DNA of 64,000 nucleotides, taken from positions 30,361-94,360 of the forward strand of contig JAFVWM010000017.1 in assembly GCA_017501665.1 (NCBI GenBank), in the 5' to 3' direction. Numbering within the stretch: position 1 is the stretch's first letter; the number at the start of each line of letters is the position of its first letter. Below, piece after piece: positions 2,108 to 55,828 of the stretch. The position numbers and the translations under genes are program-made. A model generated the notes under the pieces. It had not been told where the DNA came from. It ran no database searches and worked only from the letters and a program-made list of their open reading frames with translations. Source of the stretch: Alphaproteobacteria bacterium. Lineage in GTDB: Bacteria > Pseudomonadota > Alphaproteobacteria > RF32 > CAG-239.

Positions 2108-2171
2108 AATAGATTATCTGAATCAATTTTATAAAAAAGGTGAATAGATTATCTAAATCAATTTTATAAAA
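2108..2171. repeat. 35-bp-period direct repeat upstream of the DUF4105 gene
   Basis: A segment of about 27 bases around AGATTATCTGAATCAATTTT occurs twice, starting near 2110 and 2145, with one substitution (G to A). It fills the leader between the DUF4105 start and the palindromic element. It may be a duplicated promoter or operator, or debris of the neighbouring repeat; nothing more can be said from the sequence. Confidence 0.6.
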
Positions 2172-2292
2172 GTCGGAGAATGGTTTAGATAGAGTAATTT
2201 CTAGGGGAGTTAAAAATTTTAGCGTACAAATAGCTACGTGAATTTTTAACTCCCCCGTAAAATTGCTCTAGATGAGCTATTATACGACTTTT
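2168..2292 (-). repeat. Nested palindromic 3'-end element, copy 1 (after the DUF3015 gene)
   Basis: Outer arms AAAAGTCG/CGACTTTT enclose the conserved ends CGGAGAA and TTATACG, an imperfect stem, an inner GGGGAGTTAAAAATT-type stem, and an apical hairpin GCGTAC-AAATA-GCTACGTGA. The right end touches the stop codon of the DUF3015 gene at 2291-2293. Read from that gene, the element ends CGACTTTTAT, a hairpin followed by U residues. It is closest to the copy at 55582-55700, with which it shares the inner stem sequence. Likely a terminator or mRNA 3'-end structure belonging to a repeat family. Confidence 0.8.
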
Positions 2293-2746
2293 ATGCATTC
2301 ATAGATAAAATTGATAAAGTCAATTCTACCGCATCAACATCATTGCTGGCAAACAAAGTACCGAAATTATTATGAATTTTTGCTGACAATTCATTAACAT
2401 CAGCATTTAAAATACCGGCAACGGTAACCAGAGTTTCACCATGACCGACAGAAGCGTCAAACGCAAATTGTTCCATATTGTTTTCTAAGAAAGAAAGCAA
2501 CATTTTGCCTGTACCACCGCTTACACGACCGTTAGGATCACAACCTGATGTACCTGTGGTAATACCGAAAGTTTGTGTTCCGAATAAACCATTAGTAGTA
2601 GCAGCCAAAACTTGCGGAACAATGCCGGATTGTCCTCTCCAAGCCATAGAACCCAAACCGCAACCGGTTGAATCATATGCATTGGCATTAGATGACAAAG
2701 CGATTAAACCTGCAACCACTGTGGACAAAAGATAAAATTTTTTCAT
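2291..2746 (-). CDS. DUF3015 family exported protein
   Basis: This 151-residue product carries a signal peptide (MKKFYLLSTVVAGLIALSS then NANA) and the DUF3015 signature: GCGLGSMAWRGQSG, VPQVLAATTNG, TFGITTGTSGC. The two conserved cysteines could form a disulfide in the periplasm. The family is common in Proteobacteria without a defined role. I use the internal ATG at 2746 because GGAG lies nine bases before it; the longer frame begins with TTG and has no ribosome site. Its stop abuts a palindromic element, which probably ends the transcript. Codon use is like the neighbours. Confidence 0.8.
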   Translation of the reverse strand: MKKFYLLSTVVAGLIALSSNANAYDSTGCGLGSMAWRGQSGIVPQVLAATTNGLFGTQTFGITTGTSGCDPNGRVSGGTGKMLLSFLENNMEQFAFDASVGHGETLVTVAGILNADVNELSAKIHNNFGTLFASNDVDAVELTLSILSMNA

Positions 2747-2845
2747 TAGTAGTATCTCCAAAAATTTTCAAAATACCTTTTCAGTCTAATAACAAAATTT
2801 TCTTTTGTGTATATATTTAAAAAATTTTTCCCCAAAAGAAAACAC

Positions 2846-2873
2846 TTGATTTATTTTTTTTAGCTGTTATATT
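2846..2873 (+). promoter_or_regulatory. Candidate sigma70-type promoter for greA
   Basis: TTGATT (2846-2851) and TATATT (2868-2873) are separated by 16 bases, a good match to a housekeeping promoter. Transcription would begin near 2880, about 80 bases before the greA ATG, so the transcript would contain the leader hairpin. Confidence 0.6.
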
Positions 2874-2901
2874 CTCTTCCATCGAAAATGAATAGATAGT
2901 T

Positions 2902-2937
2902 CTGTGAAGGATTTTACCCCTCGCAGTTCTTTTTTTT
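2902..2937 (+). terminator. Terminator-like hairpin in the greA leader (attenuator)
   Basis: CTGTGAAGG (2902-2910) can pair with CCCTCGCAG (2918-2926) with one G-U pair and one mismatch. The stem is followed by TTCTTTTTTTT, ending 24 bases before the greA start codon. It lies downstream of the candidate promoter, so some transcripts should end here and leave a short RNA of about 55 nt. E. coli greA has a comparable leader terminator (GraL); the parallel is inferred from layout, not sequence. Confidence 0.65.
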
Positions 2938-2961
2938 AACATTAAAAATAAAGGTGAAAAA

Positions 2962-3435
2962 ATGGAAAAATTTCCTTTGACCAAGATTGGTTTTAATGCT
3001 TTGGAAGCAGAACTGAAAAACTTAAAAGGTGTTGAGCGCCCAAATATCATTGCCGCCATTTCTGAGGCCCGAGCTCAAGGCGACTTATCTGAAAATGCCG
3101 AATATTCTGCCGCCAAAGAAAAACAAAGTTTTATTGAAGGACGTATTCAAGATTTGGAAGCTGTATTAAGTCGCGCCCAAGTAATTGATGTTGCTTCTGT
3201 TAAAAGCAACGTAATCCGTTTTGGTGCCACCGTTTTGGTCGCTGATGAAGATTCCAACGAAGAAAATTCATATCAAATCGTTGGAGATTACGAAGCCGAC
3301 ATCGAAAAAAACAAAATTTCTTTATCTTCGCCTTTAGCAAAGGCTCTTATCGGTAAAGAAGTCGGTGACGTCGCCGAGTTTAAAGCTCCCTCCGGAAACA
3401 AATCTTTTGAAATATTGGAAGTAAAATATATTTAA
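2962..3435 (+). CDS. greA: Transcription elongation factor GreA
   Basis: GreA binds the secondary channel of RNA polymerase and stimulates cleavage of backtracked transcripts. The 157 residues match the usual length. An N-terminal coiled coil (about 8-75) has the diagnostic stretch ISEARAQGDLSENAEYSAAKE, containing the acidic tip residues that act at the active centre. It is followed by the FKBP-like C-terminal domain with GATV and the SSPLAKALIGKEVGD motif. AAAGGTG precedes the ATG. The gene stands alone, behind its own promoter and leader hairpin, and is followed by a terminator. Confidence 0.96.
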   Translation: MEKFPLTKIGFNALEAELKNLKGVERPNIIAAISEARAQGDLSENAEYSAAKEKQSFIEGRIQDLEAVLSRAQVIDVASVKSNVIRFGATVLVADEDSNEENSYQIVGDYEADIEKNKISLSSPLAKALIGKEVGDVAEFKAPSGNKSFEILEVKYI

Positions 3436-3461
3436 AATATTTTTTTTGAAACTATATAAAA

Positions 3462-3495
3462 ACTGCCTGATAAAATTTGGGCAGTCTTTTTATTT
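3462..3495 (+). terminator. Intrinsic terminator of greA
   Basis: ACTGCC (3462-3467) pairs with GGCAGT (3480-3485) across a 12-base loop and is followed by CTTTTTATTTT. It separates greA from the next gene pair. Confidence 0.8.
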
Positions 3496-3507
3496 TAGGA
3501 GATTACC

Positions 3508-3732
3508 ATGCACGATGATTTTATTAAAAATTCTAATGAATGCGATTGCGATGAAGATAATAAATGCGGTTGCTCATACCCAAACAATGTAAACTCATCT
3601 GCTTGCGGATGTGATGAAAATGACAATAATTGTTCTTGTCTTAAAACTGATAAAGAAACAAAAAATTATATAATTGAAGAAAGCATTTGCTTATGCGACA
3701 GCAATGCCGACTGTTCATGTAACAAAATATAA
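3508..3732 (+). CDS. Small acidic CxC-repeat protein upstream of trxB
   Basis: This 74-residue protein has 12 cysteines, all in CxC pairs, arranged as three modules: Cys12/14-20/22, Cys33/35-42/44 and Cys61/63-69/71. Each module reads CxC-Asp-x(4 or 5)-CxC. The linkers are rich in Asp, Glu and Asn, there is no signal peptide, and I recognise no family. The spacing suits binding of soft metals such as Zn, Cu or Cd, or thiol-disulfide exchange. AGGAG precedes the ATG, and the thioredoxin reductase gene starts eight bases after its stop, so the two are almost certainly co-translated. This points to a redox or metal-handling role, which is inference. FolD in this window ends in a similar module. 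Confidence 0.75.
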   Translation: MHDDFIKNSNECDCDEDNKCGCSYPNNVNSSACGCDENDNNCSCLKTDKETKNYIIEESICLCDSNADCSCNKI

Positions 3733-3739
3733 TAAAGAC

Positions 3740-4669
3740 ATGGCTCAATATCAAAGTGACATTTTAATTATCGGCTCCGGTCCGGCAGGATATACTGCGG
3801 GTATCTATGCTTCACGTACCGGCAAAACATCTTTTTTGGTCTCCGGTGAAGAAGAAGGAGGACAGCTGATACTAAGTAATGACGTTGAAAACTTTCCCGG
3901 ATTTGAGGATGCAATAACCGGTACGGATTTAATGAATAAAATAAAAAAACAAGCCTTAAACTTAGGCGTTAAAATCATCAATGATAAAATCGTTGAGGTA
4001 GATTTTTCGCATTATCCGTTTGAATGTTCATCACAAAATCACAATGTTTTTTATGCCAAAAGCATAATTATTGCTACCGGAGCTTCGGCAAAATGGCTAG
4101 AAATAGAAACCGAAGAACAATATAAAGGCTATGGTATATCGGTATGCGCCACTTGCGATGGTTTCTTTTACAAAAACAAAGATGTTGCCGTTATCGGTGG
4201 CGGTAATTCTGCCCTAGAAGAAGCTTTATATTTGGCCAATTTTGCTCGTTCTGTAACCATAATTCATCGACGAGAATCCCTAAGAGCTGACAAAAGAGCT
4301 CAAGAAAAAATTAAACAACACCCAAAAATTAGTGTAAAATATGATGTAACCGTTGAAAAATTTATTGGTGAAGACAAAAACCTAAAAGGCATAAAAATCA
4401 AAAATGTTAAAAATGACAAAGAAGAAATAATTAAAATTGACGGTGTTTTTATAGCCATAGGACACAAACCAAATACCGAATTTTTGCGTGGTGAAATAAA
4501 TTTAGATAAAGATGGCTATATTATAACACAACCTAATTCTTGCAAAACAAATATCGAAGGAGTTTTTGCCTGTGGCGATGTCAAAGATCCGAAGTTTCGC
4601 CAAGCCGTAATCGCCGCAGGATCAGGTGCTATGGCAGCCATCGAAGCTACACGTTGGCTTGGACAATAA
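3740..4669 (+). CDS. trxB: Thioredoxin-disulfide reductase
   Basis: The enzyme moves electrons from NADPH through FAD to thioredoxin in the cytoplasm. From the ATG at 3740 the protein has 309 residues, the normal size. It shows the FAD-binding GSGPAG (12-17), the redox-active CATC (Cys136, Cys139), the NADPH-binding GGGNSA (153-158), and the C-terminal FAD segment GVFACGDVKDPKFRQAVIAAGSG. A longer frame from 3674 overlaps the cysteine-rich gene and adds 22 residues unlike the family, so I reject that start. The spacing of eight bases after the previous stop suggests translational coupling. Confidence 0.95.
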   Translation: MAQYQSDILIIGSGPAGYTAGIYASRTGKTSFLVSGEEEGGQLILSNDVENFPGFEDAITGTDLMNKIKKQALNLGVKIINDKIVEVDFSHYPFECSSQNHNVFYAKSIIIATGASAKWLEIETEEQYKGYGISVCATCDGFFYKNKDVAVIGGGNSALEEALYLANFARSVTIIHRRESLRADKRAQEKIKQHPKISVKYDVTVEKFIGEDKNLKGIKIKNVKNDKEEIIKIDGVFIAIGHKPNTEFLRGEINLDKDGYIITQPNSCKTNIEGVFACGDVKDPKFRQAVIAAGSGAMAAIEATRWLGQ

Positions 4670-4680
4670 AAAACAAAAAA

Positions 4681-4712
4681 AATACAGCCGGAAATATATT
4701 TTCGGCTGTATT
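4681..4712. terminator. Bidirectional terminator between trxB and the 193-residue gene
   Basis: AATACAGCCG (4681-4690) and CGGCTGTATT (4703-4712) form a perfect ten-base stem with A-runs on the left and T-rich sequence on the right. It serves the convergent genes on both sides. Confidence 0.8.
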
Positions 4713-4720
4713 AATAGAAT

Positions 4721-5302
4721 TTAGAAACTGACAACCAAACGATTACCTATACTGTACTTTGGTTCAACACTACAACGCGCTGTTCCGTTTTCCATTATAA
4801 AGTAATATGGGTTACTATCTTTGGAAACATCAGAACACCAAAGCACACCTGTAAACCACAGTTTTTCCGAAGAACGTTGCTCGGCATTGACATCATATTC
4901 GCAGAGAAATTCATCCATTTTCTTAATATTGGTTATCAATTCGATACTCCAATTCTGTTTCAATAGCTCTTTAGAAGGTAATTTACCTTGTTTTCCGGCC
5001 ATTGTACACTTTTCCGCAAAGTTTTTTGAAGTAATCCACTCATCAGCTTTTACATCATCAACTGCGTCACATCGTTTTGCAAGGATAACACCGGGCATTA
5101 TTTCAAAACCCCATACTTCTTTTTTCCTCGCATAATCAAGATACGGCAAAAGTTCAAAATTATTTTCTCGTTTATAAGCAATCGGAAAAATACTTTGAAT
5201 AATCCCTTTTCGCGACTGGAAGTAAACTTCTACCTCTTTTTCAGTCATCTCTGTTGCCACAATTACGGCATCCAAGAGTTTAAATTTTTCTTCTTTTTTC
5301 AT
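4721..5302 (-). CDS. Hypothetical cytoplasmic protein, 193 residues
   Basis: No family recognised. The sequence has no signal peptide or membrane segment and begins MKKEEKFKLLDAVIVATEM. It contains about five Trp and several Cys (for example AKRCDAVDD, EKCTMAGK, VLWCSDVSK) and ends RLVVSF. The segment MENGTARCSVEPKYSIGNRL resembles the closing strand seen in DUF1566-like or fibrobacter-type repeats, but I would not assign it. The start has no clear ribosome site (AAAAAAAGTTAAAT before ATG), a trait shared with other accessory genes here. It is monocistronic, with a 266-base AT-rich gap upstream that holds nothing I can name. Confidence 0.6.
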   Translation of the reverse strand: MKKEEKFKLLDAVIVATEMTEKEVEVYFQSRKGIIQSIFPIAYKRENNFELLPYLDYARKKEVWGFEIMPGVILAKRCDAVDDVKADEWITSKNFAEKCTMAGKQGKLPSKELLKQNWSIELITNIKKMDEFLCEYDVNAEQRSSEKLWFTGVLWCSDVSKDSNPYYFIMENGTARCSVEPKYSIGNRLVVSF

Positions 5303-5568
5303 ATTTAACTTTTTTTAGGTTTATAATTTTTATTTTACAAAAGTAAAATGCGCAACCATTTGAAAGAATAAATAAAACCATAATGCAAAGAAAAACTCCA
5401 AAGCATAATAATAAAACAATTCATCAAATAATAAACACAATACCTTTATATGCTAAATATTCGCTATCATAGTTTAATACAAAATGCAAACTATATTTAA
5501 ATAAGTCAAACATTAATGTTCTTAATAAAAAACAAACTCAGTAATAACAATGCTTCTTATATCTATTA

Positions 5569-6768
5569 TTACTTTCTATCATTTAACAACTTCTGAACAT
5601 ACCTTCCCTGATACATATTAATACCAAAATTATTTCCTGCTTCAATTGATTCGGCATCTTCAACATTATAAAAAATAATTTTCGCTCTTTCTGCTTTGTT
5701 ATTATAATCCATAAAATGTTCATCTTTGCTAAACACATCTATCAAAGAATTGTGCCAACATATTTTCATAAGATCACAGTCCAATTTTTCTCGATTAATA
5801 TACTTCAACTTATCAACAGTTATACCATCGACACAAACTTTGTATCCTCTTGCTTTTGCAAAAGTTTTTGCTAAAATATACGAGTTCATATCACTGAATA
5901 TATCCTCTAACTGTAGCTCTAAAACTATAGTCGAACGCATTGATCCGTTAATACTGTCATCAAACTGAATAAATTCATCAGACAATATTGACGAAACATT
6001 TATATTAACACTGAAATTACCCGACAAATCACCATCATCGTGTCGAGAAATAATTTCCAAAACCCTTTTATTAAGTGTCTCAGATAAAGCCAATTTAAGC
6101 CACGTGTTTGAATTTATATTAACCCTTGGTAACAATGAATCTCTGACATCATCAACCGACACAAAAACTTCTTCAAAAACACGTTGGGGTGCAGATTTAC
6201 CGATAACGGCACAAACTGCTTGGCGTCTTATAAAACTGGAAAAATCAGAGATAGAAATAATTTTTTGTACTTTTGACAACATTTCCGTTGTAAATATTTG
6301 AATATTTGATCGTTCATTTTTTTTATAAACATTCTGTTCCGTAAACAAAGGCTTTATATATTGTTTTTCATTTTCTGACGAAGATACTATTTTTCTATGT
6401 AAGGTATCATAATCACTTTCCAAATCATAAAAAATAACAAATCCCGATTTTTGCATATCAGAATTATTTTTTACAAGCTCATCTTCTTGAAACAAAAACT
6501 GGATTTTTACCAACAGCGACAAAACATCATCAGATTTCTGTTTATCATATACAGCTAAAAAATCATCATTTTTCAGCATAAAAGTCTTTGCCAATCCAGC
6601 TTTCACTAACGGTAAAAACATATTTTCAAGCTCTTTTTTATTTACCGAAGTTTTGTATTTTTCATTTACCATATGCACATTAACACATAAAACAGCATAA
6701 TGGCTCATGTCCGCACAAAAACTTTTTATATCATCAACTATTACACTTCTGACACTTGTATTTTCCAT
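5569..6768 (-). CDS. Degenerate EAL-like protein, paralogue B
   Basis: This 399-residue cytoplasmic protein has a C-terminal half laid out like an EAL phosphodiesterase: FSVNINVSS (for vNlS), IVLELQLEDIF (for LvlEiTE), VCVDGITVDKLKYINREKL (for the LDDFGtGySSL region), MKICWH (for iKID) and NNFGINMYQGRYV (for GcdlaQGyy). The second Asp of the DD pair and the AEGVE glutamate are absent, so cyclic-di-GMP hydrolysis is unlikely. The N-terminal 190 residues are not recognised. It starts two bases after the stop of its paralogue and lacks a ribosome site, indicating coupling. A role as a c-di-GMP or protein-binding adaptor is inference. Confidence 0.6.
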   Translation of the reverse strand: MENTSVRSVIVDDIKSFCADMSHYAVLCVNVHMVNEKYKTSVNKKELENMFLPLVKAGLAKTFMLKNDDFLAVYDKQKSDDVLSLLVKIQFLFQEDELVKNNSDMQKSGFVIFYDLESDYDTLHRKIVSSSENEKQYIKPLFTEQNVYKKNERSNIQIFTTEMLSKVQKIISISDFSSFIRRQAVCAVIGKSAPQRVFEEVFVSVDDVRDSLLPRVNINSNTWLKLALSETLNKRVLEIISRHDDGDLSGNFSVNINVSSILSDEFIQFDDSINGSMRSTIVLELQLEDIFSDMNSYILAKTFAKARGYKVCVDGITVDKLKYINREKLDCDLMKICWHNSLIDVFSKDEHFMDYNNKAERAKIIFYNVEDAESIEAGNNFGINMYQGRYVQKLLNDRK

Positions 6769-6772
6769 ATTA

Positions 6773-8049
6773 TTAACCCAGGTTTCTATCTAAAATTTCT
6801 TTATAATCACACATATCTCTAAAATATCCGGAAATCATTTTTTTTCGTTTTAAGCAATCATTCGGAGTACATCTTTTACCATTAGGACAATGTTTTTGTA
6901 TCATGGCAACCTCCAACTTATCAATATATGGTCCTTGAAATGATCTGATTCCATTTTTAATTCCCCAACGAACAGCATTCTCTCCCAAACATTTTGCTAA
7001 TATAATTTTATTAACACCTATTTCCTCAAATAATTTTTTAATATCTTCAGATTCAGGATTATACTCTTCCATAAGATCATGCCAAAATAATTTAACATAA
7101 TCAAAGCCCAGTGATTTTATATTTAATGTTTGTAACATTTCAATGCTTGTCGCATCTAACAAAATATCATGTCCTGCTTTGTGCAATCTTTCTTTTACAT
7201 TAACAAAGGTGCGCATATTGTTTAACATATCTATCGGTTGCACCTCAATAATTATACTTTGTCCTTGTCCCTTAATATATTGTTCAAAATTAATAAACTC
7301 TAAGGTATTAATTGTAGATAAGTTAAGATTAAGACTTATTTTTCCGGTTCTGTTTTTAATATCTGCAACCTCAAACGATGCCATTGTTTTTTTATCCAGC
7401 GATTGCGTCAAATACAAAAACAACCATTTATTACCTGCCAAATCAATATTTTTATCAAAATTTTGATTTAAATCTTTCACTGCCACAAAATATTCATCAA
7501 ACAACCTGCGATAATTCGACGAATTTTCTAATCTGATAACCCCTTGGTGTTTAACAGCATCAACAAAATTAACCATATCTAAATGTTCTTTAACGGCATC
7601 AATTTGTCCGGCATCAACAGAATTTCGAAATATATTTTCCTTATATTTATCTGCCTCACTTATCATCGATTCTATTTTTTTGTAAAACTCATCAAACTCT
7701 TCCGGCTGATATAAACGAGTAAATTCACTCGAACTTTTGGCTGTCCAAACAGGGTCGGTTATTAAACCCTTACGCAATTTTTCAACTGCATCTTTTATTA
7801 TTTTCTCTGTAATATTTTTACCTAAAATAGCAAAATCACCATTTTCTAAAACAAACATCGTACTATTAGCAATCGAAACCAAATCATCAAACAATCGGGT
7901 AATAATCTTTACAAATTTAGGATGTCTGTTTTAGGTTTTAACTTAGAAATATTTACATACAAAACCTTATACTCGGATTTGTTTCTTGCAACACGTTCCA
8001 AAGTTTCCAATAAATATCTTTCTGTTTCAAAATTTTTGTATCCGACCAT
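6773..8049 (-). pseudogene. Degenerate EAL-like protein, paralogue A, split by a -1 frameshift
   Basis: An ATG at 8049 with AAGGA five bases upstream opens MVGYKNFETERYLLE and stops at 7909-7911 after 46 codons. The main frame (open from 7930, ending at 6773) continues as NRHPKFVKIITRLFDD. The two can be joined at the four-T run at 7929-7932, giving a protein of about 425 residues that aligns in layout with paralogue B. EAL-like landmarks are LNLNLST, SIIIEVQPIDML, ILLDATSIEML, DYVKLFW and NGIRSFQGPYI; the catalytic DD and AEGVE acids are missing. The C-terminal tail has four Cys (HCPNGKRCTPNDC, DMC). The break may be a real mutation or a one-base sequence error. Confidence 0.65.
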
Positions 8050-8132
8050 CTTTATCCTTTATCTCTATTATATAAAACAGTATTATGTTAAAAAAGACTA
8101 AATCAAGCAAATAAACCTTGTTTTCCGTAATT

Positions 8133-9272
8133 TTAATCTTTTCCTATATTTATGTTCCTGTTTGTATTAACTGCCAAAATTATTCCAAAACCGGTCATAA
8201 CCGACAATATAACCGTTCCACCATAAGAAATCAAAGGTAATGGAACTCCCACCACCGGCAATAAACCCAAAACCATTGCAATATTTATAATAACATATAA
8301 AAAATAACTTGTGGTTAAACCTATTGCCAGTAACTTTCCGTAATAACTTGTAGATCTCAAAGCAAACACGTAGCTGTAAGCAATAATTAAAAAGTTAATA
8401 AAAATAACAAATATTGCACCGATCAAACCAAATTCTTCTGAAAGCATCGTAAAAATAAAGTCCGTATGTTTCTCCGGTAAAAAATTCAAATGACTTTGCG
8501 TCCCGTTCAAAAAACCTTTTCCGAAAACTCCGCCCGAGCCGAGCGCAATTTTAGACTGAATAATATGATAACCTGTTCCTAACGGATCTCTTTCAGGATC
8601 TAAAAATGTTAAAACACGGTTTTTTTGATAAGTATGTAAAAACTGCCATGCAATAGGCAATGAAACAATCATTCCGGTAATTACTAATCCGAATTTCCAT
8701 AACTGTACACCGACGGCAAAAAACATCGCACCTGCTGTAAATAACAACATCAAAGCTGTACCCAAATCCGGTTGCATTAGTACTAACCCTACCGGCATCA
8801 AAACCATAGCCAAAGGCAAAATTATTCCTTTTATACTTTCTATACGTTGCAATGTTATCGAATTAAAATATTTGGCCAAAGCCATAACCAATGCAATTTT
8901 CATCAATTCCGAAGGCTGTAATTTCATAAATCCCAAATTTATCCATCTTTGAGCGCCCATACCTACATATCCGGCAACTTCTACAATAAACAACAACCCT
9001 AAAACAATAAAATAAATCCAATACGAAAATCGTAAAAATATTCTTATATCAACAAAAGCCATAACCAACATCGCACCAAAACCCAAACCGAAACGTATTA
9101 ACTGAGCCAAAGCCCAAGGATGCCAATTTCCGTTAGCTGCTGAATATAACATAACAATTCCCACAGATGCCAAAATACATATCAGTAAAACATATGAAAA
9201 ACTTATTCCCCAAAATTTTTCACCAAAACTTAACCTATGTCCTCTAAAACTTGTTTCATATGATTTATACAT
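8133..9272 (-). CDS. rodA: Rod-shape peptidoglycan glycosyltransferase RodA
   Basis: RodA is the SEDS-family polymerase that builds glycan strands during elongation, paired with PBP2. The 379 residues include about ten membrane segments and the SEDS signatures ILASVGIVMLYSA, MQPDLGTALML, the loop with LTFLDPERDPLGTGYHIIQS and IALGSGGVFGKG, and the C-terminal GVPLPLISYGGT. AAGGGAT lies five bases before the ATG. It follows mrdA after ten bases, making it the last gene of the mreBCD-mrdA-rodA run. Confidence 0.95.
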   Translation of the reverse strand: MYKSYETSFRGHRLSFGEKFWGISFSYVLLICILASVGIVMLYSAANGNWHPWALAQLIRFGLGFGAMLVMAFVDIRIFLRFSYWIYFIVLGLLFIVEVAGYVGMGAQRWINLGFMKLQPSELMKIALVMALAKYFNSITLQRIESIKGIILPLAMVLMPVGLVLMQPDLGTALMLLFTAGAMFFAVGVQLWKFGLVITGMIVSLPIAWQFLHTYQKNRVLTFLDPERDPLGTGYHIIQSKIALGSGGVFGKGFLNGTQSHLNFLPEKHTDFIFTMLSEEFGLIGAIFVIFINFLIIAYSYVFALRSTSYYGKLLAIGLTTSYFLYVIINIAMVLGLLPVVGVPLPLISYGGTVILSVMTGFGIILAVNTNRNINIGKD

Positions 9273-9282
9273 CTGTTATCCC

Positions 9283-34287: not shown

Positions 34288-34330
34288 TTTTTTAATCCTT
34301 CAAATACAAAAAGTCATTATTCAAAGTTCC

Positions 34331-34439
34331 AAAATCTTGATAAAGGGTTGTGCTACGCCGAAAATTTTGAGCGATGTGTACAAAAGAAGATACATGAGCG
34401 AAAAATTTTCAAGTATGACAACCCCTTTTGCAAGATTTT
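34331..34439 (-). repeat. Nested palindromic 3'-end element, copy 2 (rpmD-rplO junction)
   Basis: Nested stems pair AAAATCTTG/CAAGATTTT, GGTTGT/ACAACC and GAAAATTTT/AAAATTTTC, capped by the family hairpin GTGTAC...GATACATGAGC. The right end is one base from the rpmD stop. The outer CGGAGAA/TTATACG ends of the other copies are replaced, but the apical motif is kept. Being inside an operon with only four U residues after the stem, it probably acts as a partial terminator or processing site. Confidence 0.75.
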
Positions 34440-34440
34440 A

Positions 34441-34623
34441 TTACTCTTCGACTTTAACCAAGTGTTGTACCTTTCTGATCATTCCGCGAACTGACGGAGT
34501 ATCTTCCAATACAGACACTTTGTTTAATTTGTTCAAACCTAAACCAACCAAAGTAGCTCTTTGATCTTTTGGCTTACCGATAGGGCTTGCGATTTGAGTA
34601 ACTTTTATAGTTTTCTTAGCCAT
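34441..34623 (-). CDS. rpmD: 50S ribosomal protein L30
   Basis: A 60-residue protein with the L30 pattern: [30 protein letters not shown] and [14 protein letters not shown]. It is three bases after rpsE and ends against the palindromic element. Confidence 0.96.
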
Positions 34624-47585: not shown

Positions 47586-48491
47586 CTAATATTTCAAATA
47601 ATTAGCACGACTTATTTCTTTTTTAACTTTAGCAACGCTGTCTAAAACAACCCCCATAAGAAAACTTATAAAAGAACAAATCATCAAACTGCTGGCTAAA
47701 ATGGCTGTCGGAAATCTTGGAACCAAACCTGTATTTAAATATTCAATCACAACCGGTATTCCCAACCCCAAACCGATTAAAAACAAAAATAAAGATATCA
47801 TTCCGAAAAACATCATCGGACATTCTTCTTTTATGAGAAAAACAATTGTTTTCAATATTATTATTCCGTCTTTATATGTAGATAGTTTTGAAAAAGATCC
47901 TTCCGGACGTGAAAAATAATCTGTATCAACTTCTTTTATAGGCAATCTTCGAGACAGTGCAAATATGGTTAATTCCGTTTCAATTTCAAACCCTTTACTT
48001 TCAGCCGGAAATGTTTTAACAAATCTTTTAGAAAATACTCTCAAACCGGATAACATATCCCTTAACTTATACCCTAAAATAAGTTCTACAATTTTAGTTA
48101 ACACTTTATTTCCGCCACGATGACCGCTTCTGTAACAAGCATCTTCCGTTTCTTTTCTAACCCCTACCACCATATCTGACTTTTCATCTTGTAAAATTTT
48201 TATCAAGTTAGGAATTGCTTTTATATCATACGTTCCGTCTCCATCTATCATAACATAAACATCTGCATCAATATCCGCAAACATTCTTCTGACGGCATTA
48301 CCTTTTCCCTGTCTGCCTTCGAACATAACTTTAGCACCGGCTTTTTTTGCTTTTTCTGCCGTTTTATCTGTCGAATTATTATCGCAAACAAAAATTTCTG
48401 CTTTAGGAAGATATTTCTTACAGTCTTTAACAACTTTTGCTATTGTCAACTCTTCATTATAACATGGTATTAATACCGCAACTTTACTCAT
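47586..48491 (-). CDS. Family 2 glycosyltransferase, DPM1/GtrB-like
   Basis: The 301 residues contain AVLIPCYNEELTIAKVV, EIFVCDNNSTDKTAEKAKKAG, VMIDGDGTYDIKAIPNL and GLRVFSKRFVKTFPA. Two C-terminal membrane segments (about 230-255, 265-290) follow. It is the second enzyme of this class in the region, on the opposite strand. It is downstream of a large membrane protein, with AAAGGAGC before the ATG. It probably supplies a different polyprenyl-phosphate sugar. Confidence 0.87.
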   Translation of the reverse strand: MSKVAVLIPCYNEELTIAKVVKDCKKYLPKAEIFVCDNNSTDKTAEKAKKAGAKVMFEGRQGKGNAVRRMFADIDADVYVMIDGDGTYDIKAIPNLIKILQDEKSDMVVGVRKETEDACYRSGHRGGNKVLTKIVELILGYKLRDMLSGLRVFSKRFVKTFPAESKGFEIETELTIFALSRRLPIKEVDTDYFSRPEGSFSKLSTYKDGIIILKTIVFLIKEECPMMFFGMISLFLFLIGLGLGIPVVIEYLNTGLVPRFPTAILASSLMICSFISFLMGVVLDSVAKVKKEISRANYLKY

Positions 48492-48523
48492 TTTATAAAG
48501 CTCCTTTATTCGACATTATTTTA

Positions 48524-50218
48524 TTAAGTTTTTTTAATAAAATTATTCTTTATTTTAACGGTTTCATCCTCACAACTTAACTCATCAACATTCTTATCAA
48601 CCAAAATTTCATCCTTTTTATTTTCAGGCACACAAATACACAAACCTTCATCAAGATTATTTTCTAAACGGCGACAATATTTTCCATCCAATTCTTTATT
48701 TACCGAAATCATATAATCTTGATACCAAGGAAGCATACTGTTCATCATTCTGTATATGACAACAGTTTCTCCTTTATGATTTTTTACAATCTCATCTCTG
48801 ATTTTGTGAAAACGCCCTCGTTCAACAAAATCAGATCCCTTCATATAAGTTGCATTTAAATGTTTATACCCCAATGCTCTAAATTTATTTTCTTTCGCCA
48901 ATTCAACAATAACACCTGCCGAGGGAAAATTATATAACTTCAACAATGTATTTTCCGGCAATTTCACTTTTTCAACATCAACAAACTTTTTTTCTTTTCT
49001 CAAATTATCCCACTCATAGCTGTCTTTGGGAATTAAAATCAATATAGTTGATGCAATCACTACAAAAGAATAATACAACGCAAATCTAATATTATTTTCC
49101 GTTTTATATGAAAATAATATCTTAACAAAAAATATTGCCGATAACATTTCCATAACGATAATATAGCGATAAATTCCAAATAAATTCATCCAAATAATAT
49201 ATGATAAAAATAAAAATACAGCGTAAAAACACCACAATCTGTTTTTGGCAAAATCTTTCCATCTTGCCGGTTTTATACTCATATAAACCACAAAACATAT
49301 AGCCAATGTATAAAAAAACATTCCCCTAAAATCAAAGAAATATGTTTCGGCGTTTTGCCCGTTCCACGTATATGGAAAAATAAATTTGCGAAATCCTTGA
49401 GGAATAAATCGAGTATCAGAATAATTAAAATCATCAAACCAAGATGATTTAAAAATCCCATTCAAAAAAGGAAAGAACGGATTTTGATACAAATCCCACA
49501 TTTTATACATCCACCAACCGTTAACGGCCAGATACCCTGACAATCCGCCCAAAGTAAATAACAAAATAAATTCAAAAGGCTTCTCAAGATATTTATAACA
49601 AAAAATCAAAGAAATTCCGCAGGCAATACAAATATATACAATCGTTGACTTCAACCCCAAGGCGCAACCTAAAATAAGTCCGGCGATAAAAAACTTGTAC
49701 CATTTTTGCAAAGATTGATCTTTTATCATATCAAATAAGACATATAACGAGATAAAGGCAAACAAAGCTACTTGTATTTCATTGGTCGAAGAACCGATTT
49801 GAAAATATGTTATCTGACCGGTTGATGCGATAAGCATCACCATTAATATTTTAAAAAAATTGCTGATTTTCTTCTCATCAAAAAACAACAAAACTATTTT
49901 ATAAAAAACAAACAATAACCCGCCAAACCACAAACCCTGAAAAGCAAAAATCAGACCCAAATTATCATTAAAATTTTTAATCATCAAATATAATGGAATA
50001 TCAATAAGCGGATTAAAAAATGTATTTACCGAAGCCGGCACAATATCAAAACCAAGACGATTATAAAAAAAAGCAAACGGATTATAATAATGATAATTAG
50101 TAAAATCCCACCTGTTTTCAAACTTATTTACAACACTTATAACAACTGCAATCACACAAAAAAACAATAACAGTATAGAATTTTGAAACACCCGATTTTT
50201 CAATATTTTAAAAACCAC
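48524..50218 (-). CDS. Large multi-spanning membrane protein, probable GT-C glycosyltransferase
   Basis: A 564-residue protein with about ten membrane segments over residues 10-400 and a hydrophilic C-terminal domain (about 430-564). The first loop has NRWDFTNYHYYNPFAFFYNRL, an acidic and aromatic loop in the place where GT-C enzymes keep the catalytic Asp. I do not recognise the exact family. It is 32 bases upstream of the GT2 on the same strand, suggesting the two act together. The start is uncertain: GTG at 50218 has no good site, and TTG at 50203 lies 11 bases after AGGTGG. Confidence 0.65.
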   Translation of the reverse strand: MVFKILKNRVFQNSILLLFFCVIAVVISVVNKFENRWDFTNYHYYNPFAFFYNRLGFDIVPASVNTFFNPLIDIPLYLMIKNFNDNLGLIFAFQGLWFGGLLFVFYKIVLLFFDEKKISNFFKILMVMLIASTGQITYFQIGSSTNEIQVALFAFISLYVLFDMIKDQSLQKWYKFFIAGLILGCALGLKSTIVYICIACGISLIFCYKYLEKPFEFILLFTLGGLSGYLAVNGWWMYKMWDLYQNPFFPFLNGIFKSSWFDDFNYSDTRFIPQGFRKFIFPYTWNGQNAETYFFDFRGMFFYTLAICFVVYMSIKPARWKDFAKNRLWCFYAVFLFLSYIIWMNLFGIYRYIIVMEMLSAIFFVKILFSYKTENNIRFALYYSFVVIASTILILIPKDSYEWDNLRKEKKFVDVEKVKLPENTLLKLYNFPSAGVIVELAKENKFRALGYKHLNATYMKGSDFVERGRFHKIRDEIVKNHKGETVVIYRMMNSMLPWYQDYMISVNKELDGKYCRRLENNLDEGLCICVPENKKDEILVDKNVDELSCEDETVKIKNNFIKKT

Positions 50219-50390
50219 CTAAATTATCCTATCACTATAAAATATTTATTCTAATCAATAATATAAATAGAATATTTTAATGCTTTTTATAAGTAAACAA
50301 TATAATATATTATGCACAGAATCTATTGCCGACCTTATTTTATTCTGCAAAGCTGAAGTATATCAACCAAACGAGTTTTTTTCAAAAAAG

Positions 50391-50518
50391 CTCGGAGAAT
50401 GGTTCAGATAAAGTCAAAATAAAAAAAACCGGCGAGCGAGTGTAGATAATACTACATGACTTAAGCCGGTTATTTGCATATTTTGGCTTCTAGATGAGCC
50501 GTTATACAACCTTTTTTA
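50391..50518 (-). repeat. Nested palindromic 3'-end element, copy 3 (after ftsH)
   Basis: The element has the family ends CTCGGAGAA (50391-50399) and GTTATAC (50501-50507), and its right end abuts the ftsH stop. The inner stem is different from copies 1 and 4 (ACCGGC with GCCGGT), yet the cap GTGTAG-ATAATA-CTACATGAC fits the family, with a compensating G-C swap in the stem. From ftsH it ends CTCCGAGC followed by six T. A further inverted repeat ACGAG(T)n/(A)nGCTCG at 50371-50394 joins on the far side. Confidence 0.8.
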
Positions 50519-52384
50519 CTATAACTCAGGGATTGATGCCTTAGTCTTTTTCTCTTCTGCAACCGGAGCATCTTTTCCTTTCGCTATTGTCTTTCCGGCG
50601 AGAATATCTTTAATTTCTTCACCGGTCAAAGTTTCGTACTCAATTAAAGCTTCCGAGAGTTTTTCCCAATCTTCTTTATGCTCGGACAAAAGCTTTTTAG
50701 CTCCTTCATATCCGCCCATAACCAAAGATTTAATCTCGGCATCGACAAGTTTAGCGGTTTCTTCACTCATATTTTTGCTTTGAGTAACCGATTTGCCTAA
50801 AAATACTTCGCCGGTATTTTCGGCATACAAAACCGGCCCCAACTTTTCACTCATACCCCATTCGGTAACCATAGAACGAGCTAAATTTGTAGCCGCCGCA
50901 ATATCCGAAGATGCACCGGATGTAATTTTTTTCGGACCGAATTTTAATTCTTCGGCCACTCTTCCGCCCATAGTGATAATAAGGCGAGAAAGCATTTTGG
51001 TCTTAGAATAAGAATATTGATCTTTCTCGGGCAATTGTTGCACCATACCCAAAGCACGTCCGCGCGGAATAATTGTTGCTTTGTGAATAGGATCGGTTTC
51101 CTCCACAAACAACGAGCAAATAGCATGGCCGGCTTCATGATAAGCAGTCAGTTTTTTCTCATTCTCATCCATTGCCATAGATTTTCGTTCAGCCCCCATA
51201 AGAACCTTATCTTTAGCCTCATCAAAGTCTTTTGAAGTAACCTTTGTTTTATTCTTTCTGGCCGCCAACAGGGCTGCTTCATTAACCAAGTTTGCCAAAT
51301 CGGCGCCGGAAAAACCCGGAGTTCCTCTTGCAATAACCGACAAATTAACATCTTTAGCCAAAGGAACTTTTTTAACATGAACCTTTAATATTTCTTCACG
51401 ACCTTTTTTATCAGGATTCGTAACCGTTACCTGTCTGTCAAAACGTCCCGGGCGCAACAAAGCCGGATCCAAAACATCCGGTCTGTTTGTTGCCGCAATC
51501 AAAATAACATTTTCTTTTTCTTCAAAACCGTCCATTTCAACAAGTAACTGGTTTAATGTTTGTTCACGTTCGTCATTACCACCGCCTAGACCGGCACCGC
51601 GATGGCGACCAACAGCATCAATTTCATCAATAAACAATAAACATGGTGCATTTTTCTTGGCCTGAGCAAACATATCTCTGACTCGGCTTGCACCGACACC
51701 GACAAACATTTCCACAAAATCGGAACCTGAAATTGAGAAAAACGGTACATCAGCCTCACCGGCCACAGCCTTTGCCAACAAAGTTTTACCCGTTCCCGGA
51801 GGACCGACCATCAAAACCCCCTTCGGAATTTTACCGCCCAAGCGCTGAAATTTTGCCGGATCCTTCAAAAAGTCGATAACTTCTTCCAACTCTTGTTTGG
51901 CTTCATCAGCACCGGCCACATCGGCAAACGTAACTTTTTTGGTATTTTCCATCAATCTGGCACGCGATTTTCCGAAACTCATCGCCTTGTTATTACCGGC
52001 ATTTGCTTGGCGCATAAAAAACACCCAAACACCGATTAGTAACAACATCGGAAACCACGAAATAAACATTCCCCAAAGATTATCACCGGTAGTATCTTCA
52101 GGCATGGCATTTACTTTAACATCATTCTTACGAAGATTTTCTACCATTGTGGGATCATAGGGGGCATATGTATAAAAACGAGATCCGTTTGTAGCCACAC
52201 CACTGATACTGGCACCGCTAATCGTAACTTCGGAAATTTGTTTTTTTTCCACCCTATCCATAAACTCGGAAAACGCCAGTTTTTCAGAACTTGCCTTAGA
52301 CACATCACCGTTAAACATTGCCGAACCGAAAGACAAAATAACGAATACAGCAATCCAAATCAGTAAGTTTTTCCCCATTCCCAT
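50519..52384 (-). CDS. ftsH: ATP-dependent zinc metalloprotease FtsH
   Basis: FtsH degrades membrane and regulatory proteins. The 621 residues from ATG 52384 (numbers here are from the TTG six codons earlier) have two membrane segments (about 11-28 and 112-130), the AAA module and the protease domain. The AAA module shows Walker A GPPGTGKT (200-207), Walker B LLFIDEID (255-262) and the second region of homology [20 protein letters not shown]. The zinc site is HEAGH (422-426). AAGGA lies seven bases before this ATG. A palindromic element follows its stop directly. Confidence 0.97.
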
Positions 52385-52472
52385 TTCATAATCCTTAAAC
52401 AAAAAATTTACATTAACTCTTAATATATAGTTTTTTTATTTTCAAAACACAAGTAATACTTCAAATGTTCAC

Positions 52473-52505
52473 AAAAAAAAGCCGTCCTCACAAATTAAGA
52501 ACGAC
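52473..52505 (-). terminator. Terminator of the DsbA-like gene
   Basis: On the minus strand GTCGTTCTT and GAGGACGGC pair over nine bases with several G-U pairs, and eight T follow. It separates the DsbA-like gene from ftsH. Confidence 0.7.
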
Positions 52506-52529
52506 TTTTTTTTATAATTTAAATATCAA

Positions 52530-53249
52530 CTATTTTGCAGCATCAATAGCGTCTTGAATAACTTTGGCATCAAGAGTTTGCAAAATTTTGTTGTTCAAAA
52601 CCAAAGTCGGAACTCCGGTAACTTGAATTTTTCCGGCCAATTCAGAAACTGCACTCAAAGTTTTTTGAACTTTTTCAGATTTCATATCAGCTTTCAATTT
52701 TTCCATATCAACACCGGCCTTTTCAGCTGCGGCATATACTTTTCCTTCATCCAAGCGACCTTCTGTTTCGAAAATTGCACTATATACTTCAGCAAACTTA
52801 CCTTGTTCAACAGCGGCTATAGAAGCTTCGGCAGCTACCTTAGAAGCAGGAGACAAGAAAGACATCGGTTTAGCAACAACTTTCAAATCAGGATTTGCTG
52901 CAATAATCTGCTTTATTACAGGATATATTCTTCCGCAAAAACCGCAAGAATAGTCAAAGAATTCAACTAAAACAATTTTACCGTCAGGATTACCCATAAC
53001 ACCATCACCGGCACGATTATATAATTCTTCGGCATTGGCTTTTACGTTTTCTTCTGCTTTTTTCAAAGCTTCAGCTCTTTGTTGTTCCTCATAAGATTGC
53101 ATAGCATTGATAATCATTTGCGGTTTAGCCATCAATTCTTCTTCAACAGATGATTTTTTAGATGTGCAACAAAAGATATTCATAGCCAAGGCAACAACAG
53201 CCAATACTAACGCAACCAAAGACACATATAAAGCATTTAATTTTTTCAT
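52530..53249 (-). CDS. DsbA/Com1-like thiol-disulfide oxidoreductase
   Basis: The 239-residue protein has an N-terminal membrane segment or signal (about 8-28) ending at a FCC pair. A helical dimerisation-like stretch follows (35-80), then a thioredoxin-DsbA domain with VEFFDYSCGFCGRIYPVIKQI (active-site CGFC) and the cis-proline loop VTGVPTLVLNN. The layout matches ScsC/Com1 or BdbD-type proteins that isomerise or oxidise periplasmic disulfides. AAGGA precedes the ATG. No DsbB-like partner is seen here. Confidence 0.85.
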   Translation of the reverse strand: MKKLNALYVSLVALVLAVVALAMNIFCCTSKKSSVEEELMAKPQMIINAMQSYEEQQRAEALKKAEENVKANAEELYNRAGDGVMGNPDGKIVLVEFFDYSCGFCGRIYPVIKQIIAANPDLKVVAKPMSFLSPASKVAAEASIAAVEQGKFAEVYSAIFETEGRLDEGKVYAAAEKAGVDMEKLKADMKSEKVQKTLSAVSELAGKIQVTGVPTLVLNNKILQTLDAKVIQDAIDAAK

Positions 53250-53403
53250 TTTGTTTTCCTTATAATATTATAATATTTTTTAAAAACCAAAGTCATAATA
53301 TACAATCAAAATATTATTTACAAGACAAAAATAAATATTATTGATATATAAAAAAAAATAAATATAAATATAAAGTATAAAAAACAATATCGGGAAAATT
53401 AAA

Positions 53404-54063
53404 ATGTTTCATATAAATGTTTCGTTACTGTCAAAGACAAAAGCCTTAGAGGCAAACATTGATCAATTTCATGACAAACTTATAGATATTTCACTAAGTT
53501 TTAGCAAAGCAATAAAAACCTACCTGAAAGAAGGTCGCAGTCACGATTTTGAAAAATATTCCAAACAGGTCAAAAATATTGAACATGAAGCAGATACCCT
53601 TCGTCGTGATATTGAAAAACGCTTATATTCGTATAACTTATTACCTGATTTACGTGCCGATGTATTAAAATTGGTTGAAAATTTAGACAAGGTTATCAAC
53701 AAATTTGAAGAAGTAACCTACATGTTTTTTGCTCAAAAACCAGATATCCCCGATGAATACCGCGGTTATTTTAAAGAATTGGGCAAACTAAGCGCCGGAT
53801 GTGCCGAAAGCATGTGCAAAGCCTCGCGAGCTTATTTCAGAGACCTGACAACCATGCGTGACTATGCTCAAAAAGTGTATTTTTTAGAACACGAATCTGA
53901 TACATGCTCAAGAAATTTAACTGAAGAAATATTTGCTTCACCTCGTTCATTGGCCGAAAAAATGCAACTCCGCCAATTTATCGATGGTATTGCCGATATT
54001 GCCGACGAAGCCGAAGACTTTATTGACCAGTTGTTAATTTTTGCAATTAAACGAGATATCTGA
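53404..54063 (+). CDS. PhoU-like DUF47 protein
   Basis: The 219-residue all-helical protein has the DUF47 pattern: KQVKNIEHEADTLRRDIEKRLYS, LLPDLRADVLKLVENLDKVINKFEEV and VYFLEHESDTCSRNLTEEIF. The ExxxD-type metal clusters are those of PhoU. DUF47 proteins nearly always accompany Pit transporters, as here (the next start overlaps the stop), and are thought to regulate phosphate flux. Confidence 0.9.
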   Translation: MFHINVSLLSKTKALEANIDQFHDKLIDISLSFSKAIKTYLKEGRSHDFEKYSKQVKNIEHEADTLRRDIEKRLYSYNLLPDLRADVLKLVENLDKVINKFEEVTYMFFAQKPDIPDEYRGYFKELGKLSAGCAESMCKASRAYFRDLTTMRDYAQKVYFLEHESDTCSRNLTEEIFASPRSLAEKMQLRQFIDGIADIADEAEDFIDQLLIFAIKRDI

Positions 54064-55115
54064 TGGATTTGCTTTTTTTATTTTTTATAAGTTCGGGTTT
54101 ATTCTTAGGATGGTCACTCGGTGCAAGCGATGCCTCAAACATCTTCGGCACAGCTATTGCTACCCGAATGATTCGTTTTAACACCGCCGCATTGATAGCC
54201 TCAATTTTTTTAATTATCGGCGCTGTTCATGCCGGTGCCGGCGGTGCCGAAACATTAGGACAATTAGGTAGTATCAACACTCTACCCGGAGCCTTTATGT
54301 CAGCCCTTGCGGCAGCTATTGCCATTTGTTGGTCGGTAAAAGTTTCAATGCCGGTATCAACATCACAAGCCGTAGTCGGCGCAATAATCGGATGGAACTT
54401 TTATGCCGGAAAACCGACAGACTATAGTGTGTTAACCAAAATAGTAGGCACTTGGATTTTTTGCCCCATTCTTGCCGGAATTGCTTCCATAATTTTATAT
54501 CGCATTATTCAATACTGTTGCAAAAAATCAAATACGCATCTTATCCGACGCGACCAATATACTCGTATCGGCTTGGTTATTGCCGGAGCATTTGGAGCAT
54601 ATGCCTTAGGTGCAAACAACATCGCCAATGTAATGGGAGTCTTTGTTCCTTCTTCTCCGTTGAAAGAACTGCTTCTGCCCTTCGGTATAGTCTTAAACAA
54701 AGCCCAAGTTTTATTTTTACTTGGCGCCATCGCCATTTCTATCGGCATTTTCACCTACTCACAAAGAGTTATAAAGACTATCGGCAACGGCATTATGAAG
54801 ATGTCTCCTTTAATGGCTTTTGTTGTTGTTATATCTCAAGCTTTGGTGTTGTTTTTATTTTCATCTCAAGCTTTATTTAATTTTTTATCTTCGCATAATT
54901 TACCGACGATTCCTCTCGTTCCCGTATCCAGCACACAAGCTGTGGTCGGGGCAGTCATTGGCATTGGTATAGCCAAAGGCGGTAACGATATAAATTGGAA
55001 TATCTTAGGTAAAATAGTATTAAGTTGGATAATTGCTCCGCTTTTATCAGCACTTATTTGCTATATATCTTTGTTCTTCTTACAAAACGTATTCAACTTG
55101 GTAGTATACAAATGA
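54063..55115 (+). CDS. Inorganic phosphate transporter, PiT family
   Basis: A 350-residue inner-membrane protein with about ten segments and two inverted signature repeats: GASDASNIFGTAIATRMI near residue 21 and the second YALGANNIANVMGVF near 180. VSMPVSTSQAVVGAIIG and VPVSSTQAVVGAVIG are the paired half-repeats. PiT carriers bring in metal-phosphate with protons. It is coupled to the DUF47 gene (TGATG) and to rlmH downstream (ATGA). Confidence 0.93.
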   Translation: MDLLFLFFISSGLFLGWSLGASDASNIFGTAIATRMIRFNTAALIASIFLIIGAVHAGAGGAETLGQLGSINTLPGAFMSALAAAIAICWSVKVSMPVSTSQAVVGAIIGWNFYAGKPTDYSVLTKIVGTWIFCPILAGIASIILYRIIQYCCKKSNTHLIRRDQYTRIGLVIAGAFGAYALGANNIANVMGVFVPSSPLKELLLPFGIVLNKAQVLFLLGAIAISIGIFTYSQRVIKTIGNGIMKMSPLMAFVVVISQALVLFLFSSQALFNFLSSHNLPTIPLVPVSSTQAVVGAVIGIGIAKGGNDINWNILGKIVLSWIIAPLLSALICYISLFFLQNVFNLVVYK

Positions 55116-55549
55116 AAATAAATATTGTTGCCATCGGCAAATGCAAAAAAAATTCACCTGAATACGCCATTATCGAGGAGTACATCAAACGCTCAAACTG
55201 GCAAATAAACATCAAAGAAAAAGACAATTCAAATCAAGTAGACGAAGCTGAATTTTTAAACAACTCAATTAAAAGCGGAAAAGTTGTGGTCTTGGACGAG
55301 CGTGGGCAAAATATGAAATCAACCGAACTTGCAACAATTGTCGAAAACTGGCAATTAAACGGAACTTCGGAAATAAATTTCCTTATCGGTGGTGCCGATG
55401 GTCATCTTCAATCAACTCGTGATAAAGCTGATTTAATCTTATCCTTCGGCAAACTTACCATGCCTCATATGCTAATGCGTGCAGTCTTAGCCGAACAGAT
55501 TTATCGTATTCAAACTATTATAACCAAACACCCGTATCATAGGGAATAA
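55112..55549 (+). CDS. rlmH: 23S rRNA (pseudouridine-1915-N3)-methyltransferase RlmH
   Basis: RlmH methylates pseudouridine 1915 in helix 69 of 23S rRNA, on assembled ribosomes. The 145 residues have MKINIVAIGKCKK, LDERGQNMKSTELA, the SPOUT knot FLIGGADGHLQ and the ending MPHMLMRAVLAEQIYRIQ then HPYHRE. I use the ATG at 55112; the longer frame lies inside the transporter gene. rlmH commonly adjoins rsfS; here the two are convergent with palindromic elements between. Confidence 0.95.
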   Translation: MKINIVAIGKCKKNSPEYAIIEEYIKRSNWQINIKEKDNSNQVDEAEFLNNSIKSGKVVVLDERGQNMKSTELATIVENWQLNGTSEINFLIGGADGHLQSTRDKADLILSFGKLTMPHMLMRAVLAEQIYRIQTIITKHPYHRE

Positions 55550-55557
55550 GGAATGCT

Positions 55558-55590
55558 GTTATACGAGTTTTTTCCAAAAAACTCGGAGAA
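55558..55590. repeat. Palindromic connector next to the rlmH stop
   Basis: GTTATACGAG is followed by T6-CC-A6 and CTCGGAGAA, so CGAG(T)6 and (A)6CTCG pair perfectly. The same junction occurs at 55691-55723, 133 bases later. The hairpin is flanked by T-runs in both orientations and can serve as an intrinsic terminator for rlmH. Confidence 0.75.
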
Positions 55591-55700
55591 TAGTTCAGAT
55601 AAAGTGATTTCTAGGAGAGTCAAAAATTTTGAGCCGTACAAATAGCTACGTGAATTTTTAACTGCTCCGTAAAATTGCTTTAGATGAGCTGTTATACGAG
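55582..55700 (-). repeat. Nested palindromic 3'-end element, copy 4 (rlmH-rsfS, proximal to rlmH)
   Basis: The ends are CTCGGAGAA and GTTATACGAG. The outer stem shows 23 aligned positions with two A-G/G-A tandem mismatches and two isolated G-A mismatches. The inner stem GAGAGTCAAAAATTTT-type and cap GCCGTAC-AAATA-GCTACGTGA are closest to copy 1. It is tandem with copy 5 and shares a connector hairpin with it. Confidence 0.8.
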
Positions 55701-55714
55701 TTTTTTCAAAAAAA

Positions 55715-55828
55715 CTCGGAGAACGAGGTTAATAATAAGATTTTAGAGAAGAAAAAGCGGAGTGTACAAAATAGTACATGAGCATTTTTCTTACTCGCGA
55801 AATCTGTATTAGTAACCCGTTATACGAG
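55715..55828 (-). repeat. Nested palindromic 3'-end element, copy 5 (after rsfS)
   Basis: CTCG/CGAG closes the element, followed by GGTTAATA-type, AGATTT/AAATCT and AAGAAAAAGC/GCATTTTTCTT stems, with the cap GTGTAC-AAAATA-GTACATGAG. The inner sequence is unrelated to copy 4 although the ends and cap are kept. The right end is three bases from the rsfS stop; reading from rsfS it ends CTCCGAG followed by seven T. Confidence 0.8.

Follow-up and report, generated by a model that had tools for sequence, protein, structure and literature searches.

The stretch of DNA analysed here (the window) comprises 64,000 nucleotides of contig JAFVWM010000017.1 (assembly GCA_017501665.1, positions 30,361 to 94,360) from a bacterium of the Alphaproteobacteria (GTDB lineage RF32; CAG-239), and it carries five long nested palindromes. 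Among described systems, the EFAR and YPAL elements appear to be the nearest in behaviour. EFAR, from Enterococcus faecalis, is reportedly palindromic and modular and mostly about 170 bp long; it is said to integrate in unrelated stem-loops, retaining part of the target stem at its ends, and reportedly takes the L-shape of two stem-loops. We know of no replication-strand or stop-codon lock in EFAR. Rickettsia palindromic elements are alphaproteobacterial palindromic repeats that are inserted in frame inside open reading frames (ORFs). The YPAL or RU-2 element of Yersinia is structured and about 168 bp long, its targets span or adjoin dyad symmetry and carry duplications of 3-26 bp, and it is said to be expressed with upstream genes, perhaps affecting RNA stability (excerpt of PMC2229807). 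Repetitive extragenic palindromes (REPs) are 20-40 bp long with a GTAG or CGTC tag and often give the stop codon; an excerpt of PMC3733652, which also names EFAR in Enterococci and the Rickettsia palindromic elements, describes CGTC-tagged REPs for Alphaproteobacteria.

The palindromes of the window represent a family that we liken to EFAR and YPAL by their descriptions only. EFAR behaves similarly but belongs to another phylum; YPAL belongs to another taxon and has target duplications according to the excerpt, whereas none was demonstrated here. Insertion into stem-loops in the manner of EFAR and YPAL may have counterparts in an element nested at one ftsH locus and in an insertion at an A-run (both described below), though no closely related empty site was found. 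An earlier note on the window, which knew of no described class with this layout, was too strong, since EFAR reportedly behaves similarly, as does YPAL according to the excerpt. REPs and bacterial interspersed mosaic elements with their REP-associated tyrosine transposases are likewise palindromes near genes, but the units described here measure 115-134 nt and not the 20-40 bp given in the excerpt. Identity with the REP system was rejected because unit size and tags do not fit and no Y1 transposase (Y1_Tnp, PF01797) was found in the window's own genome. On balance we favour the view that these are dispersed, tandem-forming palindromes found throughout one bacterial order, that they sit in the slot of the intrinsic terminator, and that they act as an oversized terminator or 3'-end protector.

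Architecture of the element

The typical unit is a nested palindrome of about 130 nt, forming a rod some 45 to 50 pairs long in which a conserved cap and conserved loops are joined by covarying stems. Read antisense to the gene, the outer stem is typically AAAAACTCG/CGAGTTTTT, and the ends common to the copies are GGAGAA... and ...TTATAC. On the same strand a 3x3 loop reads GAG/ATA in 98 of 154 copies, GAT/AGA in 18 and a mixture in 4, the remaining 34 being unreadable by the pattern used. Inward of this loop there are more stems with loops between them, and then the cap AG(T/C)GTA...TAC(A/G)TGA. In the mRNA the outer stem takes the form A-run...CTCG / CGAG...U-run and finishes in a U-tract; an A-run of at least four on the plus strand, which is the U-tract of the mRNA, is present in 112 of the 154 copies.

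The earlier note had described a shared cap, and the cap is shared, with a paired core of GTA/TAC (an extra C-G or G-C pair is present in 16 of 20 aligned copies) and a loop longer than was written. The outer ends CGGAGAA and TTATACG that it gave are found in copies 1, 4 and 5 of the window; copy 3 ends in TTATACA and copy 2 has neither end. It also described the middle stems as unrelated yet always complementary. The stems do covary, but their being unrelated is only partly true, as copies 1 and 4 are close relatives of each other.

The covariation score of 20 copies was 0.499, compared with 0.209 after shuffling and 0.095-0.164 with partners slid, and 83.7% of 996 cells were paired, compared with 66.5% and 39-47%. 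Double changes occurred at 39 of 51 pairs (30.7 in shuffles), with 205 doubly changed cells (78.6 in shuffles). The covariation of the stems is not chance, although the alignment was fitted to the covariance model and these figures lean towards the structure. Several middle pairs are nearly all Watson-Crick despite sequence change, and G.T pairs cluster at fixed places; the ftsH site of two related genomes (described below) shows different inner parts. Because of this we read the stems as probably changing by whole-stem exchange more than by slow drift.

Rfam gave no match at gathering score in the window, and in five other loci there were sub-threshold matches only (E 0.14 or worse). Integron attC sites have the boxes RYYYAAC ... 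GTTRRRY, which the ends GGAGAA.../...TTATAC do not fit (by eye; no integrase search was made). Miniature inverted-repeat transposable elements have terminal inverted repeats, a target duplication and a partner transposase; here the whole unit is an inverted repeat, no target duplication was seen and there was no partner among Y1 transposases and reverse transcriptases.

Copies in the window

The window holds four typical copies (1, 3, 4 and 5), which are of one family, and one divergent copy (copy 2). All five lie where the earlier note had placed them and fold as long rods, and copy 1 is one of the first two entries of an inverted-repeat search of the window, copy 4 together with its neighbour being the other. 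The first base of a stop codon lies no more than 4 nt from the model match at copies 1, 2, 3 and 5, in agreement with the four stop-associated copies noted previously. Copy 1 (2165..2295, plus strand, as are all features in this section) lies behind the stop of a minus-strand DUF3015 gene and has its cap, GCGTACAAATAGCTACGTGA, at 2222..2241; in the related genome G005 it is identical at 130 of 131 nt, the gene itself at 423 of 462. Copy 2 (34329..34441) is the spacer hairpin between rpmD (L30) and rplO (L15); its model score is weak and about equal on both strands. Copy 3 (50384..50517) is behind the ftsH stop and is adjoined at 50371..50383 by ACGAGTTTTTTTC, which appears to be what is left of the right end of a further unit. 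Copies 4 (55575..55707) and 5 (55708..55835) are a tandem pair in the convergent gap between rlmH (plus) and rsfS (minus). Copy 4 is the distal unit, and copy 5 touches the rsfS stop, a TAA that overlaps the A-run of its outer stem. The sequence GTTATACGAGTTTTTTCC at 55557..55574 seems to be all that remains, at the right end, of a third unit in this array.

Position at stop codons and in the terminator slot

Removal of overlapping opposite-strand matches reduced 206 model matches to 161 copies, of which 154 were non-redundant and fell into 123 clusters; 3 had no flank, leaving 120. Orthologous copies of related species were kept in this set, so the clusters are not fully independent. In 105 of the 120 clusters the stop of an ORF (at least 70 codons) reading into the element lies at -28 to +24 nt of the element start, and the commonest offsets are 0 and +1, where A-run and stop share bases. 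On the opposite side the stop of an inward-reading gene was present at 12 of 100 first-per-locus copies (10 more lacked flank). The gene-oriented placement that the earlier note saw in the window extends beyond it. The 15 exceptional clusters include four flagellin-leader copies (see below) and at least two distal array units (L011 and L030). Some copies supply the last codons of the host gene. Rickettsia palindromic elements sit inside ORFs whereas this family lies behind them, with 105 of 120 clusters directly behind a stop, which speaks against membership of that class.

Orthologous loci show what stands at these sites when the element is absent. Of 26 ftsH loci two were too short; among the other 24 there were five with an element and 15 with an intrinsic terminator beginning 1-31 nt from the stop. 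At rsfS two of 26 loci had an element and 15 had an intrinsic terminator, beginning 0-26 nt from the stop. The elements at these loci were read by eye, and four of those at ftsH and one at rsfS (L206) fall outside the cap pattern. Taken together, an ordinary intrinsic terminator is present at 30 of 43 element-free ftsH and rsfS loci, and therefore the element takes the place of the terminator. The two share the post-stop position and the A-run, stem and U-run at the outer ends, but an intrinsic terminator has a short GC stem where the element has its long rod with cap and loops. In genome G014 the ftsH element lies within a terminator-like, GC-rich stem of 23 pairs (with one G.T) that is followed by T7.

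Replication orientation and folding of the two strands

The copies also follow the replication strand, which goes beyond the earlier note. In the window's own genome 18 strong copies share their contig with at least one other, and all of them agree in direction. Five further genomes have 17 contigs of this kind, on which 72 of 74 copies point the same way as their neighbours (tandem units counted), the exceptions being G009:C3:587 and one of two on G042:C10. We took GC skew as a probable mark of replication direction. The element strand is opposite to the leading strand so defined in 27 of 32 regions from six genomes (the window and other stretches; the 4.8-kb L218 was left out and also agrees). 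Where |skew| is 0.11 or more, agreement is complete (23 regions), and the five regions that disagree are all at 0.10 or below. Of 516 genes (simple ORF calls) 342 lie on the leading strand, and the regional result is not explained by gene orientation alone. The local skew of the element strand, which is partly set by the adjacent gene, is negative for 143 of the 161 copies; it is -0.11 or lower for 91 and 0.11 or higher for one, the flagellin-leader copy L092 (+0.16).

Of the two strands, the one antisense to the gene has the more stable fold in 151 of 161 copies; the mean difference is 9.7 kcal/mol, of which shuffles that keep composition give about 3.6 kcal/mol (60 of the 161 copies, 10 shuffles each). 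On this strand G outnumbers C in 158 of 161 copies, and the window's own strand is C-rich. The bias, which the earlier note did not bring up, is a poor fit to a pure mRNA hairpin, and selection on the antisense strand, as single-stranded DNA (ssDNA) or RNA, fits it better than selection on an mRNA hairpin alone.

These observations bear on a different explanation, namely that the element is a selfish ssDNA hairpin. Its folded antisense strand would anneal to the template of the lagging strand in the A/T tracts of terminators and so be incorporated at the fork, and terminator function would merely be why insertions there are tolerated. The strand lock in all clear-skew regions, the agreement in copy direction and the better folding of the antisense strand speak for this, as do the coupling of the purine loop (only 4 mixed copies) and the A-run insertion at L068. 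It agrees less well with the five of nine weakly skewed regions that disagree, with the positive skew at L092 and with the part of the folding difference that composition explains; moreover, the own genome lacks a Y1 transposase and reverse transcriptase is found in just 10 of 35 genomes. We consider this explanation possible but unlikely. The strand lock would also suit a replication-oriented architectural site, for fork pausing or segregation, for which a stop codon is only the tolerated place. Genomes G019, G040 and G041, however, are rated 100% complete and have no match at E 1e-6, and such a role seems very improbable indeed.

The hairpin of the rpmD-rplO spacer

Copy 2 has a history of its own. 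A hairpin with the same kind of cap is present in the rpmD-rplO spacer in 17 of 26 genomes of the genus and the cap is absent from nine, including G019 and G040. The core of copy 2 is identical at 109 of 109 nt in the own genome (G000), G005 and G039, whereas between G000 and G039 rpmD matches at 154 of 183 positions and the rplO side at 270 of 301. When 13 such spacers (10 with the cap) were folded, the mRNA was favoured in eight of 13, and in five of the 10 with the cap, so there is no strand bias. The conservation of copy 2 suggests that it is a vertically kept hairpin with a function within the essential spc operon, a point that is also new with respect to the earlier note. Because it is conserved within an essential operon, full termination is unlikely, and processing or partial termination is the likelier role.

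The spacer hairpin invites the view that the whole family is a host-evolved RNA element, with the cap as the place where a host protein binds or processes it (RNase III-like) and ordinary recombination spreading the copies. The recurrence of the cap in this spacer, the identity of copy 2 against the divergence of rpmD and the near-equal folding of the two strands all speak for it. Typical copies, however, are found behind a wide range of genes, occur in tandem arrays, differ greatly in number and fold better antisense, and nine of the 26 spacers have no cap. As an account of the family it is therefore rather improbable.

Probable turnover of copies and candidate movers

Copies at one site can differ in kind. 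At ftsH the outer 5' arm (mRNA sense) is common to the elements of G000 (copy 3) and G005, but their inner parts differ, so that different subclasses occupy the same site. At L068, compared with its relative L063 (flank 84% identical), a whole extra unit lies between the post-stop A-run and the GTGC of the older unit.

Two further loci carry what may be traces of change. At L220 (G039), compared with L017, the gene ends in codons similar to the 5' arm of the element that G000 has there; the element seems to have been lost and the arm retained as coding sequence. At L226 (1724-1835) the outer shell is kept, and the cap and inner stem look swapped for a plain intrinsic terminator. In L004 (1-450) and L005 another repeat, CGTCATCCC...GGATCTTC, adjoins elements and is perhaps one of the CGTC-tagged alphaproteobacterial REPs.

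Four sense-orientation copies stand just upstream of flagellin starts (8 nt away in three cases) in two metagenome-assembled genomes (MAGs), each preceded by a similar leader: L059 6481-6611, L092 1465-1595 and L095 7007-7136 in one MAG and L099 7176-7306 in the other. Pfam Flagellin_N was confirmed for L059 only. In these two genomes the element may have been co-opted as the 5' leader of flagellin. It is not a general flagellin leader, as there was no element at E 0.01 at 30 other flagellin loci (one per genome). Many matches to a flagellin query are scattered over contigs in three genomes, with 23 in G004, 18 in G017 and 14 in G144.

Reverse transcriptase was rejected as the mover: it is present in only 10 of 35 genomes and does not track the element, and it is absent from G005, G008, G009 and G042, all of which carry copies. 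A mobile hairpin without a known transposase, which as folded ssDNA (or as an RNA copy of it) would spread by entering the lagging strand where terminators have A/T tracts, could be proposed instead, and we hold it to be distinctly doubtful.

Distribution

The repeat family proposed from the window is borne out by a covariance model built on seven copies. In the own genome (1.70 Mb) it finds 21 sense copies at E below 1e-9, several of them in tandem arrays with degraded halves. Across the order 131 of 153 genomes and all 17 genera match at E 1e-6; this survey used stricter filters and scored 22 candidates per genome, so that copy numbers in it are lower bounds. A first sample of 38 genomes had 22 with matches at E 0.001 (opposite-strand matches included): 21 of 22 of the own genus, counting the own genome (G019 had none), and one from another family of the order (G022). 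None of 15 other genomes of the class matched at this threshold. Full lists of sense copies number 35 in G070, 16 in G009, 15 in G042, 12 in G008 and six in G002.

A pattern scan of named genomes gave at least 101 stretches, on 80 of which the model was run. Among the 80 titles listed, 74 were Alphaproteobacteria or unspecified proteobacteria, many named rumen, cecum or rectum samples and one was Candidatus Enterousia, an Alphaproteobacterium incertae sedis. At E 1e-4 the model had no match in five stretches with non-alphaproteobacterial titles (L058, L077, L090, L116 and L117), nor in two with alphaproteobacterial titles (L069 and L083). One stretch titled Firmicutes (L120, 59% GC) had a single marginal match that we take as chance; it stays in the copy and cluster counts given above (161, 154 and 120). 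Carriage by phages, plasmids or viruses was rejected, as phages (query copy 1), plasmids (copies 4-5) and viral contigs (one pattern) gave no match. The family is one of uncultured, mostly gut-dwelling Alphaproteobacteria, and relatives of the window's own genome suggest that this too is from a gut bacterium. We found no earlier report of the family in a literature search that covered few subscription papers.

A model for the element

The most likely role of the nested rod in the mRNA would be that of an oversized transcription terminator and 3'-end protector that replaces the ordinary terminator. A terminating role is suggested because the outer stem finishes in a U-tract. Typical copies would occupy the intrinsic-terminator slot directly behind the stops of leading-strand genes and would turn over between sites. 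New units would insert beside older ones at the post-stop A-run, inner stems would be exchanged through recombination at the conserved loops, and spread would follow a replication-linked route. We infer mobility rather than recombination alone. The nested element of G014, the extra unit at L068, the mixed subclasses at ftsH, the differing copy numbers of the genomes and the conservation of copy 1 count in favour of this model. The idea of an oversized terminator or 3'-end element came from the earlier note, and the placement at stops and the terminators at element-free sites agree with it, whereas the antisense folding bias and copy 2 do not.

Several other observations weigh against this model as well. 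A consensus terminator scan of 50200-56300 called none of copies 3-5, which lack a short GC-rich stem with a small loop directly before the U-tract. By the rule used, 4 of 24 ftsH and 9 of 26 rsfS loci have neither element nor terminator, one of those scored so (L201) looking like a hairpin with a related cap. The A-run that yields the mRNA U-tract is found in 112 of 154 copies, copy 2 is placed inside an essential operon, and mRNA-level selection alone would not yield the better folding of the antisense strand. Additionally, no close relative offered an empty site with a target duplication, locus comparisons showed no duplication, and no mover was found in a search limited to Y1 transposase and reverse transcriptase.

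With this family, dispersed palindromes would have taken over terminators in another independent instance after EFAR and YPAL, here order-wide, and the replication fork would have a part in how terminators evolve. Should the strand lock stem from the way the element transposes, a single-strand route coupled to replication and lacking a known enzyme would be indicated. If the doubtful mobile hairpin were true, it would have colonised the gene terminators of an entire bacterial order with a single replication orientation. Annotation of the family in the order's many MAGs can draw on the covariance model.

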